From a virus: a stretch of DNA of 41,745 nucleotides. The translations under genes and the position numbers were made by a program. A model generated the notes under the pieces. It was given only the letters and a program-made list of their open reading frames with translations, was not told where the DNA came from and ran no database searches. Below, piece by piece: positions 14,404 to 30,917 of this stretch; position 1 is the stretch's first letter; every line of letters starts with the position of its first letter. The DNA lies in the IMG/VR virus record IMGVR_UViG_3300048029_000101, positions 1-41,745 of that record. One strand, 5' to 3'.

Positions 14404-14787
14404 ATGAATAGTAAAGAAATAAAGCCTACTGATGGCAGAAAGGGTAACTCTAGGAAGAAATCTATACCTAAGCTACCTGTACCTCAAGGAGAGAGGTCTA
14501 ATAAACCAGCACTTAACCAAGCTAAGAAGAGTCGTAAGAAGCAATATGCAAAGAAAGCTATCAAGAATGTATTTGGTAGTGAGGTTGCTATGTTTGAGTC
14601 TATGGCAAAGAAAGCTAAAGAAGGTAGTTACAACCATATGAAGTTGCTTACTGATATGATGTATGAGGAAGATAAAGATAATGTGGGAACAACTGTTAAA
14701 GCTCCTGTTATTAACTTTATAGGTGATAGCGAGATAAGTAAGAAGGTTAAGGAAAAGATTATTGACATAACACCTAATGATGAGTAA
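14404..14787 (+). CDS. Putative terminase small subunit
   Basis: A 127-residue basic protein immediately upstream of, and overlapping by 11 bases, the large terminase gene. The N-terminal 50 residues are very Lys/Arg-rich (RKGNSRKKS, KKSRKKQYAKK), suited to DNA binding; the rest is helical, with an ending (VKEKIIDITPNDE) like small terminases. No clear HTH is visible, so the call rests mainly on position and charge. Small subunits recognise the packaging site. Confidence 0.6.
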   Translation: MNSKEIKPTDGRKGNSRKKSIPKLPVPQGERSNKPALNQAKKSRKKQYAKKAIKNVFGSEVAMFESMAKKAKEGSYNHMKLLTDMMYEEDKDNVGTTVKAPVINFIGDSEISKKVKEKIIDITPNDE

Positions 14788-15991
14788 ACTTAATATACAC
14801 AAAAAATACATACCACTATTTAAAGAACCCTCAAGATACTTCGTTGTAACTGGGGGTCGTGGTTCTGGTAAGTCATTTAGTATTAACGTGTTTCTACTTA
14901 ACTTAACCTATGAGAAAGGTCACAAGGTATTGTTCTCACGTTATACAATGATATCAGCACATACATCTATTATACCTGAATTTATAGAAAAGATTAACCT
15001 AATGGGAGTTCACGAAGACTTTAGGATAACTAAGGACGAGATAATGAACTTAAAGACAGGTAGCTCTATTATATTTAAAGGTATTAGAACCTCATCTGGT
15101 AATCAAACAGCAGCACTTAAATCATTAAACGGTATTACAACATTTGTAGTAGATGAAGCAGAGGAGCTTGTAGATGAAGGTACGTTTGATAAGATTGACT
15201 TTTCTATACGTTCTCAGTTAAAGCAGAATAGAGTTATTTTAATACTGAATCCGACAACTAAAGAGCATTGGATATATAAGAGATACTTTTTAACAGAAAA
15301 CGTCTTAGAAGGCTCTAATTTAACTCAAAACAATACTACTTACATTCATACTGACTATAGAGATAACAAAGACAATCTATCTGAGTCGTTTTTAGAGCAG
15401 ATTTATACAATGAAGAAGAAAAGACCAGATAAGTATGAGCATCAAATACTTGGAGGTTGGTTAAATAAAGCTGAAGGTACTATAATAAGAAAATGGAGAG
15501 TAGGAGATTATATTCCTACAGAGCTTACTTGCTACGGTCAAGATTTTGGTTTCTCTGAGGATTTAAGTACGCTTGTAAAAATATCTGTAGATAAGAATGC
15601 CCGAAAAGTTTGGGTTAAAGAAATATTTGGTCAAAAAGGATTAAATACATCACAAATCTATATGAAGAATAAGTCAGAGTGTGGTTTAGACTTAATTATA
15701 TGTGATAATTCAGAGCCCAGACTAATAAATGAGTTAAAAGTATTGGGTCTTAACATAAAACCTACTATAAAGAAGAAAGGTAGTATATTATCTGGTATAG
15801 CTTTAATGCAGGATTATGAGATAATAGTAGATAGAAACTCTCACGGTATTATAAGAGAGATTAACAATTACGTTTGGAAAGATAAAGGAGAAGTTCCTAT
15901 AGATAAGTTCAATCACTATTTGGATGCGATACGTTATTCTATGATGTACCTGATACAAGGAATAAACTCTGGAGTCTATACCATTAGGTAA
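14777..15991 (+). CDS. terL: Terminase large subunit
   Basis: A 404-residue DNA-packaging motor of the Terminase_3/PBSX type. The N-terminal ATPase has Walker A GGRGSGKS (about 26-33) and Walker B TTFVVDEAEE (about 121-130). The C-terminal RNase H-like nuclease has the acidic residues in YGQDFGFSED (about 254-263), IICDNSEPR (about 308-316) and HYLDAIRY (about 379-386). A second ATG three bases downstream is possible. It is the last gene of this late transcript; no terminator hairpin is seen after it. Confidence 0.95.
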   Translation: MMSKLNIHKKYIPLFKEPSRYFVVTGGRGSGKSFSINVFLLNLTYEKGHKVLFSRYTMISAHTSIIPEFIEKINLMGVHEDFRITKDEIMNLKTGSSIIFKGIRTSSGNQTAALKSLNGITTFVVDEAEELVDEGTFDKIDFSIRSQLKQNRVILILNPTTKEHWIYKRYFLTENVLEGSNLTQNNTTYIHTDYRDNKDNLSESFLEQIYTMKKKRPDKYEHQILGGWLNKAEGTIIRKWRVGDYIPTELTCYGQDFGFSEDLSTLVKISVDKNARKVWVKEIFGQKGLNTSQIYMKNKSECGLDLIICDNSEPRLINELKVLGLNIKPTIKKKGSILSGIALMQDYEIIVDRNSHGIIREINNYVWKDKGEVPIDKFNHYLDAIRYSMMYLIQGINSGVYTIR

Positions 15992-22540: not shown

Positions 22541-23251
22541 ATGAATCAAAATTTTAACTTAAACATACCAAAGTCTTTAAGAGGAGTAAAATTAAAGGAT
22601 TGGATTAAGTTCATTGACGTTTACGAGAAAAATAAAGACAACGAGTCTAATGATTTTCTAAATAAGAAGATGTTAGAGATATTTTGTGATGTAGATTTAA
22701 AATCATTACTTAAAATACCAGTATCTAGCTTTGATACTATTATAGCTCACTTATATGACACTTTAAACTCAGATACACCATTAGTTAACACGTTTAAAAT
22801 GGTAGGAACAGATGGAGTAGAGGTTGAATTTGGCTTAATACCTAACCTAGATAAGATGTCTTATGGTGAATGGGAGGATTTAGAGAATTATATTTGGGAT
22901 AATAAGACACTACATAGAGCTATGGCAGTGCTTTATAGACCTTTAATATGGCAAATTGGAGGTAAATATAGAATACACGAGTATAAAGGTACTGATTTCT
23001 ATGCAGACCTTATGAAAGAGATGCCAATAGATATAGCTTTAGGTGCTAGGGTTTTTTTTTATCGTTTAGTGAAAAAATTAGGGGATTATACGATGGACTC
23101 TATACTAAATCAATATCAGAAGGAAATGGAGAGCAACTCAGAAACAGTTTCGGAAGAAAATGGAAAGGCTATCCAGCAATACTTGAGCTTGCGCAAGGAG
23201 ATGTCAGAAGAATTGACGAAGTTACAGCATTACCAGTTCATCAATGCTTAA
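22541..23251 (+). CDS. Tail assembly chaperone, in-frame product (G-like)
   Basis: A 236-residue cytosolic protein that heads the tail operon. Central conserved-looking GLIPNLDKMSYGEWEDLENYI spans about residues 98-118. At 23051 the sequence runs into T9, and the frame after it (about 62 codons) uses CAG, TTG and CGC codons that are rare elsewhere in this phage. The parallel -1 frame reads like a real protein, so a fraction of ribosomes probably shifts there to give a longer GT-like product. Such chaperones guide the tape measure into the tail tube. The family call rests on position and the frameshift. Confidence 0.7.
   Translation: MNQNFNLNIPKSLRGVKLKDWIKFIDVYEKNKDNESNDFLNKKMLEIFCDVDLKSLLKIPVSSFDTIIAHLYDTLNSDTPLVNTFKMVGTDGVEVEFGLIPNLDKMSYGEWEDLENYIWDNKTLHRAMAVLYRPLIWQIGGKYRIHEYKGTDFYADLMKEMPIDIALGARVFFYRLVKKLGDYTMDSILNQYQKEMESNSETVSEENGKAIQQYLSLRKEMSEELTKLQHYQFINA
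23053..23059 (+). promoter_or_regulatory. -1 ribosomal frameshift slippery site (T TTT TTT)
   Basis: Inside T9 (23052-23060); frame-0 codons are GTT TTT TTT TAT. The -1 frame has a stop (TAG) at 23047, just before the run, so it is open only from here on. A weak ATCGT/ACGAT pairing (23061-23065 / 23090-23094) follows. Confidence 0.7.
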
Positions 23252-23319
23252 TGTACTTAGAGTACGCTAAAGAAAAGAACGAATTAGAGAATAAGTTAAT
23301 AAAACAAAGTACAAGATAA
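23059..23319 (+). CDS. Frameshift-encoded C-terminal domain of tail chaperone (GT-like T part)
   Basis: After a -1 slip, translation continues from 23059 for 86 residues to a TAA at 23317-23319, giving a 259-residue fusion (22541-23059 joined to 23059-23319). The stop overlaps the ATG of the next gene as TAATG, exactly the junction used throughout this operon. The sequence is protein-like (WKGYPAILELAQGDVRRIDE, then LPVHQCLMYLEYAKEKNELE) and codon use matches neighbours. It has no ATG of its own at its start. The alternative is a homopolymer sequencing error making this the sole reading frame. Confidence 0.7.
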   Translation, partial: LSFSEKIRGLYDGLYTKSISEGNGEQLRNSFGRKWKGYPAILELAQGDVRRIDEVTALPVHQCLMYLEYAKEKNELENKLIKQSTR

Positions 23320-23777
23320 TGAAACACGTTTACGACATACTAGATGTATTAAGGGATGAGCTTAGAAGTAATCCTTCGGTAAATACGGTCTCCTACGGAG
23401 ACATAACTGACTTAGATTTAGATAAAACGACAATGTTCCCATTGTCGCATCTACTAATCGATAGTGCATCTTACGGAGAAAGAACTATTACATTTAGAAT
23501 AAAGGTGTTATGTGCTGATATAGTAGACTATAATCAACTAGAAAACCAATTTGATGAGTTTTACGGTAATGACAACTTGCACGATGTTATGAATACTCAG
23601 TTTCAAGTAATAAATTCACTTATAATGAAATTAATGCGTGGAGACTTGTTTAAATCTAATTATCAAGTAACTACAACTCCTGTAGCAGAGCCATTTAAAG
23701 AGAAATACGGAAATGTATTAGCAGGATGGGCTACAGATATAGAAATAGAAGTACCTAACGGAATAAGCATCTGTTAA
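23319..23777 (+). CDS. Putative tail completion / neck protein
   Basis: A 152-residue protein with alternating helix and strand, starting MKHVYDILDVLRDEL and ending in a beta strand (ATDIEIEVPNG). Position between tail chaperone and HK97 gp10-like gene, and size, fit tail terminator or completion proteins, which cap the tail tube at the head. No diagnostic motif. TAATG overlaps at both ends. Confidence 0.5.
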   Translation: MKHVYDILDVLRDELRSNPSVNTVSYGDITDLDLDKTTMFPLSHLLIDSASYGERTITFRIKVLCADIVDYNQLENQFDEFYGNDNLHDVMNTQFQVINSLIMKLMRGDLFKSNYQVTTTPVAEPFKEKYGNVLAGWATDIEIEVPNGISIC

Positions 23778-24313
23778 TGGAGAATAAGCACCTAAAAGAA
23801 GCGTTAAGAGAGGCTGGTAGGCTAATAAAAGGAAAGTTAAAGGCAGAAGCATCTAACGACGGGTTTAGAGCTTCTGGAAAGCTAGATAAGTCTTTTAGAT
23901 ATAGAGTCATAAAGAATGAGCTTCATTTGTTTGGAGAAGAGTATGCTAACGCTTTATCTAAAGGTATAACCGATAAAGGTAAGTATAACTATGATATGGC
24001 TGAAAAGCTAGAAAAATGGGCTAGAAGTAAAGGTATGAGACCTTTGTTTAGGAATAAAAAAGGTAGGTTTAGGAACGTAACCACTAGCAGCTGGAAATCT
24101 TTAGGATATGTATTAGCAAGAAGTATAGCTGGTAAATCCCCTTCAGAAAATAGAAAAAACAAAAACGGAGGTATTTCTAAGCGTTTTGGATACAAAGGTA
24201 GTGGGTTTATACAGACCGTAAAGAATCAAATGAAGAAAGAGGTTGCAAGCATCATATCAGCAGGTTACAAAAAGGATATATTAGCAGAATTAGATAAAAT
24301 AAAAAGAATATAA
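23777..24313 (+). CDS. HK97 gp10-like tail/neck protein
   Basis: A 178-residue strongly basic protein. The N-terminal LKEALREAGRLIKGKLKAEA helix, central KGKYNYDMAEKLEKWARSKG and C-terminal helical part resemble the HK97-gp10/tail-completion family. Such proteins join head and tail. The call is by general resemblance and operon position, so moderate. Confidence 0.55.
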   Translation: MENKHLKEALREAGRLIKGKLKAEASNDGFRASGKLDKSFRYRVIKNELHLFGEEYANALSKGITDKGKYNYDMAEKLEKWARSKGMRPLFRNKKGRFRNVTTSSWKSLGYVLARSIAGKSPSENRKNKNGGISKRFGYKGSGFIQTVKNQMKKEVASIISAGYKKDILAELDKIKRI

Positions 24314-24314
24314 T

Positions 24315-25715
24315 ATGGCATTAATACTAACAAGAAGTCCTTATCACATAAGCAGAGGCTCTTTAGACGCTAACGCAGGTTTAATTGTTGAGATATCTAC
24401 AAATGTAGACGGTGTATCAACAATAATAAACTCATATACTCTAAACTTTAGAAATAAAAAGTACATAGATATATCTAGTATAATAGGTAGCGAATTTAAT
24501 TCTACAGATAAAATACTATATGTAAAGATTACTGTGTCTGGAGCTATAAATGGAGTAAGTCAGTCCGACAGCGTGTCTAATTACTATGCTTCAAATGGTT
24601 ACTTGTATAGTTCTGATGATTACAACGAAGATTTTTCATCTACATTAAGAGCTAACGGTTACTACACAGGTAGCTCTGATGTAGTGTATAAATTAAGTAA
24701 TTCTAGTTTAAGCATACCATTACTAAACACTTCTTTAACTACATTAATGGATAATAAAGTAGGAAACCCTGCTTTTGATAGCTCAACTGATTGGCAAATT
24801 CAATCTGGAGACGTTATAGAGGATGGGGTGTTAAAGTGTGGTGGTACTTTTGGTGGTAGGAATTATTTAGGATTTAACCCAACCACAGGATTAGACTACA
24901 AGGTATCATTCGAGATATCAAATTACACAAGTGGAGACATAGCCTTCTTTACGGGAAGTGGTGGTACTAGGATTACAGATTATTTATCAGCTAACGGTAG
25001 TTACGAGTTTAATTACACTCAAGATGCAACAACTCTTAATATGTTTTCGCTATATAGTCCAAGTGGGTTTGTAGGTCACATAGACAATGTATTTTTAGGG
25101 GAGAGAACATCGACAAACTACGAAGAGGTAACCATAGACGCTAAATATAATGGCTCTATAGTAGGAACTAGAAATTTAGAGTTTGATTCTGATACAAACA
25201 CAGCTAGTCAAGAGGTTCAATTCAATATAGACGATATAGATGAGGTTGTTATTACTACAGACCATACGACTAAAACAGTTAAAGTAAATCCAATTACCGA
25301 GTGCAAGTATAGTCCTTACATACTAACATTTAAAAACAGGTACGGTGTAGATGAAGACTTATGGTTTTTCAAGAAATCTAAGAGAAAGCTAACTGTAGAG
25401 GGAGAGGACTTTAGATTTAATCAAATAGACACAAGAATAGCAGGAGGATTAACTAGGTCTATACAAGAATATAATAAAAACGGAAAAGAATCTATAACAC
25501 TTAACTCTGGTTTTGTCGTAGAGGCACTTAACGAGTCTTTTAAGCAACTTTTATTATCTGAAGAGGTGAAACTATATGATTTTGATAATAGTTCAACACA
25601 AGCTGTTAAATTAAGTCTAAGCAGCTTAGATTACAAAACTGTAACAAATGACAAGCTTATAAACTACACAATAGAAGTAGAATTTAGTAATAATATAATA
25701 GACGATATAGTTTAA
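24315..25715 (+). CDS. Tail protein with embedded CBM-like segment
   Basis: A 466-residue beta-rich virion protein. Residues about 1-140 and 260-466 read as one tail domain (with ECKYSPYILTFKNRYGVDED at about 329-348). Between them (about 148-255) lies a segment starting NPAFDSSTDWQIQSG and ending HIDNVFLGE, typical of carbohydrate-binding modules of the CBM_4_9 sort. It is a likely distal-tail or baseplate protein with a sugar-binding insert. Stop overlaps next start (TAATG). Confidence 0.6.
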   Translation: MALILTRSPYHISRGSLDANAGLIVEISTNVDGVSTIINSYTLNFRNKKYIDISSIIGSEFNSTDKILYVKITVSGAINGVSQSDSVSNYYASNGYLYSSDDYNEDFSSTLRANGYYTGSSDVVYKLSNSSLSIPLLNTSLTTLMDNKVGNPAFDSSTDWQIQSGDVIEDGVLKCGGTFGGRNYLGFNPTTGLDYKVSFEISNYTSGDIAFFTGSGGTRITDYLSANGSYEFNYTQDATTLNMFSLYSPSGFVGHIDNVFLGERTSTNYEEVTIDAKYNGSIVGTRNLEFDSDTNTASQEVQFNIDDIDEVVITTDHTTKTVKVNPITECKYSPYILTFKNRYGVDEDLWFFKKSKRKLTVEGEDFRFNQIDTRIAGGLTRSIQEYNKNGKESITLNSGFVVEALNESFKQLLLSEEVKLYDFDNSSTQAVKLSLSSLDYKTVTNDKLINYTIEVEFSNNIIDDIV

Positions 25716-28558: not shown

Positions 28559-28704
28559 TAATAAAACAAGCATTAGAATTACTAGCTGGTGATGACTGGC
28601 TAATAGCAGACAAGGATATACAAATAGCAAAAGGATTGTACGAATTACCTACAACATTTGCTGAATTAAGAATGAATAATAAACGGAAAAAACTACTAAA
28701 ATAA
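28555..28704 (+). CDS. 49-residue protein before the tape measure
   Basis: Frame starting MIIKQALELLAGDDW, helical and ending in a basic cluster (NNKRKKLLK). It fills the gap precisely: ATGA overlap with the tail-tip gene, TAATG overlap with the tape measure gene. Probably a small tail assembly factor; no family recognised. Confidence 0.6.
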   Translation: MIIKQALELLAGDDWLIADKDIQIAKGLYELPTTFAELRMNNKRKKLLK

Positions 28705-30917
28705 TGGCTGACGAAAATAAGATTTTTTATAAAATAGAGGTTCACGGAGAGCAAGGTGTTGCTACTATCCGTAATATGAAAGGTGAGTTCGTAAAGACAA
28801 AAGTACCTGTGCAAGACTTGAATAAAGTTATGTCAGATATGAACGGAACTATGTCTATTACCAGTAGTGAGGCTGGTAGGCAAATGGCTAGGTTGAAAAA
28901 ACTTAGAAGCGATGTTCAGATAAATTCAAAAGAATATCAGAACCTAACTAGGTCTATGATGGGATACCAAAAAGTTCTTGACGGAACAGGTAGAGCTACT
29001 GGAGCTTCTGCTTCTGCTGCTATGGAGCTTGGTAGAGTTGTATCAGATATGCCTTACGGTATTCGAGGTGTTGCAAACAACTTGTCTCAGTTTGCTTCTC
29101 AAATGGCTTTCGCAGCAAAATCAACAGGTAGTTTAAAGTTGGCTATTAAGGATTTATTTACAGCCTTAACAGGTCCTTTGGGCGTACTGTTAGCTATACA
29201 GGCTGTAATTGCTGCGTTTGACCATTTTTCTCAAAAAAAGAAAGAAGCTAAGACTGCATCAGAAGAACACAATAAAGCTCTTAAAGAGGAGATTTCAACT
29301 CTAAAAGGGTTTGTTGATATATTGTCAAATGTAAACTCAACTACTAGCGACAGAAATAGAGTTATAATAGCAGCTATTGCTAGCAACAAGGATTACGCTA
29401 AATCTTTAAATGAAAGCTCTAGTACATTGTTGGCTCAAGAAGAGGCTTTAAGAGATTTACTTGAACAGAAGCAGAAACAGTTAGAATTAGACCAAAAGTT
29501 AATAAAACTAAATGAACTAAATAATAGTGGATTACAAAACGAAAACAGAAGCATAGATGATTTAAAAGAAAGACTTTTAGAACTGAAAGAGATTAGGAAA
29601 AAGGAACTAGAAGATGTTGGAGCTAATAGAGCTAGAGCTATAATAATGTCTTATCAGAAAGAGCTAACTTACTTAGATGACACTATAAGTAAGTTAGAGC
29701 AAAGAAAAAAAATACTTGAAGAGATAGAAAATCTTTTTGAACCTCCCAGACAGGTTGTAGAACGTTCAGTAGAGTGGTATAAACAGCAAATATCTTTCGC
29801 TGAAAAAACTAGAGACCAGTTATCTACGACAAGTAGAGCTTACGCAGACCAAACTAAAGTTATTGAAGGTCTTAGGAAGGAGTTAGAAAAGATTACTGGA
29901 GGAGATGGTAAGAGAAAAAAAGTAAATTACCTTGATTTTAAATCCCTAGAAGAAGGTCGTGGAAAAATCATAGCTGAGATAATGAAGACTGATGAGAAGA
30001 TAGCTTTATTATCTGCTAAAGACAAGAAAAGTAGACTTATTATACAGAGAGACTTCCATTTAAGAAGATTAATGGCTGTAGATGGAGCTAATTCAGAGTT
30101 AATAGCTAAATACAAAGAATATTACGCTAAACTTATTGGTATAGAAGAACAAGCTGAACTAGGAGGTGTATCTATAGTTGATAAAAAACCAACCTCTATA
30201 GGAGCAACTCCAAATCAGATTAGAGAAGCTCATTCTCAAAGAATGATTGCTTTAATGGAAACAAGTTTAGAGTATTCTAACACGGTAGTTAGCTTACTTA
30301 CATCTAACACAGAAAGAGAGATAACGATAGAGCAGAATAAAACTAATGCTCTAAACAATGAACTTAGGGAAAGGCTTAATAATGAAAATTTAAGTGCTAG
30401 TGAAAGAAAACGTATTCAGTTAGAGATATCTAAGAACGATGAAGCTATGAGGGTTAAAAAAGAGAAGCTAGAAAAGAAAGCGTTCAAGATTCAAAAAGCT
30501 GCTAATATAGCTGGAGCTTTGGTTAGTACATACTCTGGAGCAAGTGCAGCTTACTTTAATACCTTGAAAAACCCAATAAACAAAATAGACCCTGCTGCTG
30601 GACTACTTAGAGCTAAGATTAATGCAGGTATAGCTACTGCTGTAGGTCTAGCTAATGTAGCTATGATTGCAAGACAAAAATTTCAATCATCTATAAGTTC
30701 AGCCCCTTCTGCTGGAGCATTAGGTGGAGGTGGTTCTGGTGGTGGTAACGATAGAAGTTTTAACTTTAATTTAGCAGGAGCTTCTAGGGAAAATCAATTA
30801 GCACAAACATTACAAGGTAGGTTTGACCAACCATTACAAGCATACGTTGTAAGTAGAGATATAACAAATCAACAGCAATTAGACGAAGAAATTACGAGTT
30901 CTGCAAGCTTTGGTTAA
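28704..30917 (+). CDS. Tape measure protein
   Basis: A 737-residue protein that would set tail length (siphovirus). The N-terminal part has repeated short helices, then a hydrophobic helix (about 148-172: LFTALTGPLGVLLAIQAVIAAF). Long coiled-coil regions follow (about 185-350 and 540-590). A second hydrophobic Ala/Gly-rich part (about 600-660) precedes a GGGGSGGG linker near 673. This order and length fit tape measures. The gene lies after, not before, the tail-tip genes, which is unlike lambda. Confidence 0.8.
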   Translation: MADENKIFYKIEVHGEQGVATIRNMKGEFVKTKVPVQDLNKVMSDMNGTMSITSSEAGRQMARLKKLRSDVQINSKEYQNLTRSMMGYQKVLDGTGRATGASASAAMELGRVVSDMPYGIRGVANNLSQFASQMAFAAKSTGSLKLAIKDLFTALTGPLGVLLAIQAVIAAFDHFSQKKKEAKTASEEHNKALKEEISTLKGFVDILSNVNSTTSDRNRVIIAAIASNKDYAKSLNESSSTLLAQEEALRDLLEQKQKQLELDQKLIKLNELNNSGLQNENRSIDDLKERLLELKEIRKKELEDVGANRARAIIMSYQKELTYLDDTISKLEQRKKILEEIENLFEPPRQVVERSVEWYKQQISFAEKTRDQLSTTSRAYADQTKVIEGLRKELEKITGGDGKRKKVNYLDFKSLEEGRGKIIAEIMKTDEKIALLSAKDKKSRLIIQRDFHLRRLMAVDGANSELIAKYKEYYAKLIGIEEQAELGGVSIVDKKPTSIGATPNQIREAHSQRMIALMETSLEYSNTVVSLLTSNTEREITIEQNKTNALNNELRERLNNENLSASERKRIQLEISKNDEAMRVKKEKLEKKAFKIQKAANIAGALVSTYSGASAAYFNTLKNPINKIDPAAGLLRAKINAGIATAVGLANVAMIARQKFQSSISSAPSAGALGGGGSGGGNDRSFNFNLAGASRENQLAQTLQGRFDQPLQAYVVSRDITNQQQLDEEITSSASFG

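Follow-up and report, generated by a model that had tools for sequence, protein, structure and literature searches.

The E/E+E' proteins of phage P2 form a tail chaperone in which a −1 extension arises at the T-rich slippery heptamer TTTTTTG, and they belong to Pfam family PF10109. In phage lambda, the G/GT tail assembly chaperone is produced by −1 ribosomal frameshifting (Levin 1993; Xu 2004; reviewed in PMC5009743). A different source of frame changes is slippage by RNA polymerase, whose RNA:DNA hybrid measures 9–10 bp and which slips efficiently on runs of nine A or T (PMC5009743); runs of this length are selected against in the coding regions of many bacterial genomes (PMC1088944). By the account of Penno 2005 cited in PMC1088944, transcriptional slippage takes place on a U-run in mxiE of Shigella flexneri, and tssM1 of Citrobacter rodentium is expressed by transcriptional slippage on an A11 run (PMC4256274).

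The window, by which the whole 41,745-base IMG/VR virus record is meant, contains a gene in which a run of nine T residues marks the junction between two overlapping reading frames. The features of this gene and of the genes downstream of it are as follows:

22541–23251, plus strand: 0-frame ORF of 236 aa, the short form, a probable tail-assembly chaperone; PHROG 32199 (unknown function)
23050–23319, plus strand: −1 frame ORF, 89 sense codons and a TAA, encoding the C-terminal helical domain of a predicted 259-aa joined product
23052–23060, plus strand: T9 run, the putative recoding site, with the heptamer T TTT TTT at 23053–23059 inside it
23061–23251, plus strand: dual-coding stretch in which the 0-frame tail (about 62 codons) overlaps the initial two thirds of the −1 domain, with selection acting on both
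23319–23777, plus strand: next gene, 152 aa, phrog_30964, a conserved neighbor whose start overlaps the −1 stop (TAATG)
23777–24313, plus strand: gene for a tail completion or Neck1 protein, 178 aa, phrog_5 (E 8.5e-5), a conserved neighbor
24315–25715, plus strand: conserved neighbor gene, 466 aa, phrog_35281
28704–30917, plus strand: gene for a probable tape measure protein, 737 aa, phrog_18891 (E 5.7e-5)

The run lies in the context GG-TTTTTTTTT-ATCG, within codons 171–174 of the 236-codon ORF (GTT TTT TTT TAT), and the heptamer is in the 0-frame of this ORF. In the −1 frame, a TAG at 23047–23049 is followed by 89 sense codons (23050–23316), 86 of them from the slip onward, and by a TAA at 23317–23319 that overlaps the ATG of the next gene at 23319. 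A −1 shift within the run would join the two frames into a protein of 259 residues. The preliminary description had reported the heptamer at the point where the −1 frame opens, the TAG, the 86 codons, the TAATG overlap and the length of the joined protein, and all of these were confirmed on the sequence. Inspection of the first 20 codons of the window's −1 ORF found no ATG, GTG or TTG start. The run is the sole A or T run of nine or more across the 41.7-kb window, and a first-order model predicts 0.8 T-runs of nine or more in the whole window and 0.015 in the 236-codon gene, which places its position in this gene beyond chance.

Comparison with the systems above reveals both likenesses and differences. 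A short form with a predicted rarer long form, a −1 shift close to the gene's 3' end and location in a tail module are held in common with lambda G/GT. Unlike the lambda pair, however, this gene carries a T9–T10 homopolymer rather than the lambda site, has an overlap of about 60 codons with a conserved 0-frame tail where the annotated G–T overlap is 19 nt, does not directly precede the tape measure gene, and has no homology to lambda G or T that is detectable by sequence. The run as a conserved unit and the long dual-coding overlap are what sets it apart from G/GT. Kinship with P2 E/E+E' is possible: a T-rich site with a −1 extension is shared and two relatives match PF10109 weakly, whereas the P2 heptamer differs from the 9–10 nt homopolymer found here. 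As in mxiE, an extra nucleotide at a U-run would join two overlapping ORFs and give a longer product, and two features of the mxiE type are present, a conserved run of at least nine at the frame junction and independence of codon phase; mxiE, however, is a cellular regulator gene rather than a phage assembly gene. The tssM1 gene likewise yields two length variants from a homopolymer, and both variants and their ratio are needed for a phage-tail-related machine, but its run is of A rather than T and its product is a membrane protein of the type VI secretion system.

Relatives were gathered from viral contigs using N-part and C-part peptide patterns that were run separately; few of these patterns touch the T-run, and the junction itself was mostly unselected. 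The preliminary description had raised the contrary case of homologues that end with the 0-frame C-terminus only, and both parts were present in 427 of the 428 sequences collected. These sequences gave 324 distinct junctions, nearly all of them from IMG/VR, and in every one, two cultured phages included, the C-part is shifted by −1 from the frame of the N-part, which shows that the arrangement of frames at the T9 run is real. The run was T9 in 272 and T10 in 50 of the distinct junctions, so that 322 carry T9 or T10 and 323 carry T9 or longer, counts that suggest more support than they give, as the relatives are not phylogenetically independent; because this applies to the clusters as well, the result is not summed up in one p-value. 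The relatives' loci, 1.55 Mb in all, contain only 25 other T-runs of at least nine. The two exceptions among the 324 junctions were a T8 run with an intact heptamer (L376) and a T11 run (L322). The sequence of the C-part, the −1 domain, is also conserved. The only isolates found in the set were the Nonlabens phages P12024S, which has T9, and P12024L. A search of a bacterial and archaeal genome collection with two alignments found no relatives, which fits lytic phages, and no phage DNA similar to the window was found. That the tail module begins with a recoded gene of two products is well supported.

The conserved unit at the junction appears to be a T9–T10 run that is independent of codon phase, rather than a codon-phased heptamer. 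The run was found in phase 1 (NNG or NNC before TTT TTT TTT), phase 2 (GTT TTT TTT TAT or CTT TTT TTT TTC) and phase 3 (TGT TTT TTT TTC), while its length stayed at 9–10, and at least 15 phase changes with maintenance of length are required on the N-part tree. Both edges of the run are guarded whatever the codon phase. A G or C stands on its 5' side (position 23051 in the window) in 192 of 197 clusters, and where this base is the wobble position of a leucine codon, the codon is CTG, TTG or CTC in 26 of 27 cases, compared to a 17% share of G/C-ending codons for leucine, A being usual. At the 3' edge, the phenylalanine codon is TTC in 17 of 17 cases, against a TTC usage of 26%. Among the inspected junctions, T TTT TTC was never found in place of the run, despite this same usage of TTC among phenylalanine codons. 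Every run, the T8 outlier included, also holds the ribosomal heptamer T TTT TTT in the frame required. That the signal consists simply of this heptamer, as envisaged in the preliminary description, is not supported by a run of 9–10 T residues that spans three phases and is never replaced by T TTT TTC. No downstream RNA stem-loop was found near the window's run by pseudoknot-free folding (z 0.39; upstream z 0.79), and an RNA alignment of 27 sequences around the run contained no base pair. An early +1-frame stop (TTTAG) occurs within six codons in 82% of cases versus 57% in the null; its reading as a safeguard against slippage was set aside, as two coding frames constrain the same bases.

Both reading frames are under selection where they overlap. 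Downstream of the run, the median open length of the 0-frame is 182 nt over 116 clusters, compared to 18 nt in a null in which the −1 codons were swapped for synonymous ones, and the chance of the opening seen in the window is 0.0006. Slip sites in the SEA-PHAGES training set lie on average 26 nt before the 0-frame stop (PMC10885494). In pairs at 12–25% N-part divergence, third-position differences at same-residue codons of the −1 frame amounted to 7% in the first 12 overlap codons and 15% in the rest of the overlap, as opposed to 25% past the 0-frame stop and 31% upstream. Furthermore, codon adaptation in the overlap is 0.46 for the 0-frame and 0.50 for the −1 frame, versus 0.76 before it and 0.86 after it. 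The open 0-frame, the suppressed synonymous change and the lowered codon adaptation indicate that the 0-frame tail is selected for and that both alternative C-termini are maintained. These values contradict the original contention that the −1 part has the phage's usual codons while the 0-frame continuation uses rare ones, and a dispensable, rare-codon tail is at odds with the long opening and suppressed synonymous change. A well-sampled case of long dual coding is thereby added.

Structure predictions were made on the two parts separately. The predicted 0-frame protein (pLDDT 82) is modeled with confidence over an N-part of about 170 residues and less so in its helical tail, and the predicted −1 part (pLDDT 81.5) forms a small domain of helices. 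In a viral model library, many unnamed proteins from uncultured phages, and one from P12024S, have a fold matching that of the N-part; the best match in this library that is named tail assembly chaperone has low confidence. Sequence comparisons gave weak tail-chaperone matches to PF10109 (E 0.0034, in 2 of 55 relatives) and NF047360 (E 0.029, in one), as well as a weak match to the phrog_166 tail protein (in four). No meaningful match to a solved structure in the PDB was obtained by sequence or by fold, and the long-helix PDB matches of the 0-frame tail were discarded as generic. The recoded gene is the first of a tail/neck module and lies beside TerL in most relatives. In the window, the probable tape measure gene is downstream of it with four other genes between, and the lambda G/GT position, between the major tail protein and tape measure genes, was not observed. 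The window's large terminase gene (14777–15991) is located about 6.5 kb upstream of the recoded gene, from which it is separated by small genes on both strands; it is directly upstream in most relatives.

Tail assembly chaperone is the best name for this product and probably a correct one, based on logic and neighborhood rather than homology, and the gene is best regarded as an analogue of the lambda G/GT system and only possibly as a member of it. Of the earlier proposal of a tail chaperone mirroring G/GT, the conserved two-product −1 gene in a neck/tail module has held up, while the chaperone matches are weak and do not extend to lambda G or T. An alternative, compatible with slippage by either machine, is that the gene encodes another two-form factor of the neck, connector or packaging apparatus. 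In 133 of 197 clusters the recoded gene is preceded, in most cases immediately, by the large terminase gene, a neck or tail-completion gene follows, and neither lambda homology nor a solved relative was found; on the other hand, the weak matches to PF10109, NF047360 and phrog_166 and the status of two-form recoding as a hallmark of tail chaperones (PMC5009743) make this alternative rather unlikely. Other explanations would dispense with the joined product. Mis-assembly of a true T10 sequence, with one continuous ORF and only one product that matters, is suggested by the homopolymer, a typical error site, and by some BFVD single chains that are matched by both the N and C models. Such single chains (A0A516L611, A0A516L5A8, A0A6J5SVK3, A0A6J5N0W0 and A0A6J7WDG4, each matched by the N and −1 C models) may be natural fusions, joined annotations or homopolymer-length errors. 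A sequencing error is ruled out for the family by the 324 distinct junctions, which hold the frames apart in isolates as well, and the 0-frame tail is open and conserved far past chance; mis-assembly is accordingly the least probable of the explanations considered. Independent synthesis of the −1 product from an internal or coupled start, with no fusion, is only slightly less improbable. An ATG, GTG or TTG is present near the run in the −1 frame in 86 of 197 clusters (ATG in 20), and GenBank annotates the P12024S −1 part from a late ATG. However, no usual start codon is found there in the remaining 111 clusters or in the window, for which an internal start was rejected on these grounds; moreover, −1 residues at the junction (FF and a nearby F) are conserved, and the T9–T10 run would be left without explanation.

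The explanation that we favor, with somewhat more than even confidence, is a two-form gene in which RNA polymerase slips and whose products act in the manner of lambda gpG/gpGT. One gene would give rise to two proteins at a set ratio. Standard decoding would yield the 236-aa short form, composed of the globular N-part of about 170 aa and the helical 0-frame tail, and slippage of RNA polymerase on the T9 run would generate a fraction of mRNAs with one extra U (or minus two), from which the 259-aa form would be made, with the −1 encoded helical domain replacing the 0-frame tail. Both forms would most likely function in tail assembly as gpG and gpGT do. The alternative of a −1 ribosomal frameshift at T TTT TTT in the lambda manner, with the flanking T residues a by-product of hydrophobic residues in both frames, is possible but less probable. 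The inspected junctions have the heptamer in the right frame, tail chaperones classically shift by −1 (PMC5009743), and tandem slippage on UUU UUU is efficient in E. coli (PMC4066793). Nevertheless, T TTT TTC never substitutes for the run, even though it belongs to the H_HH.U_UU.Y motifs, which rank among the slipperiest for the E. coli ribosome (PMC4066793). Preservation of both the length and the 5' G/C boundary in all three phases, through at least 15 re-phasings, also argues against it. A stimulatory structure was not found near the run, although such structures may be missing from other phage sites as well, so that their absence counts for little. The strict run length and guarded edges, considered together with the 9–10 bp hybrid and slippage on runs of nine, lead us to lean toward transcriptional over ribosomal slippage, and both may contribute. 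Against the polymerase reading, slippage by polymerase should yield +1-frame products too, and the tail-chaperone frameshifts in the literature consulted on this subject are ribosomal; the literature searched contained no paper on transcriptional slippage in tail chaperones. The chances appear evenly balanced that this large phage group sets the ratio of two tail-assembly proteins by polymerase slippage on a T9–T10 tract tuned to the 9–10 bp RNA:DNA hybrid, in place of ribosomal frameshifting, with about 60 codons double-coded and both C-termini functional. Tail-chaperone recoding is a textbook example of ribosomal frameshifting, and a phase-free homopolymer of polymerase-hybrid length suggests a different machine, by which a similar product ratio would be reached.

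Members of the recoded family are carried by the Nonlabens phages P12024S and P12024L (genus Inhavirus), the only cultured members found; they infect a marine flavobacterium. P12024S resembles the window in its T9 run, its frames and its similar downstream gene order, and differs in being annotated as two hypothetical proteins, P12024S_38 and P12024S_39 (L002, 4558–5252), the second starting from a late internal ATG. This annotation omits the start of the −1 domain and misses the predicted joined product. Finally, weak likeness to the N-part fold (E 9.5e-4) was observed for AGN89393 of Flavobacterium phage 6H (L274, KC959568; 10927–10044, minus strand), which, judged from its length, is probably R9VW65. 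AGN89393 has T TTT TTC near its stop and is followed by an unannotated −1 frame ORF of 105 codons, and a direct −1 shift at the T6C runs into a TAG. The phage 6H gene is possibly related, with a different arrangement.
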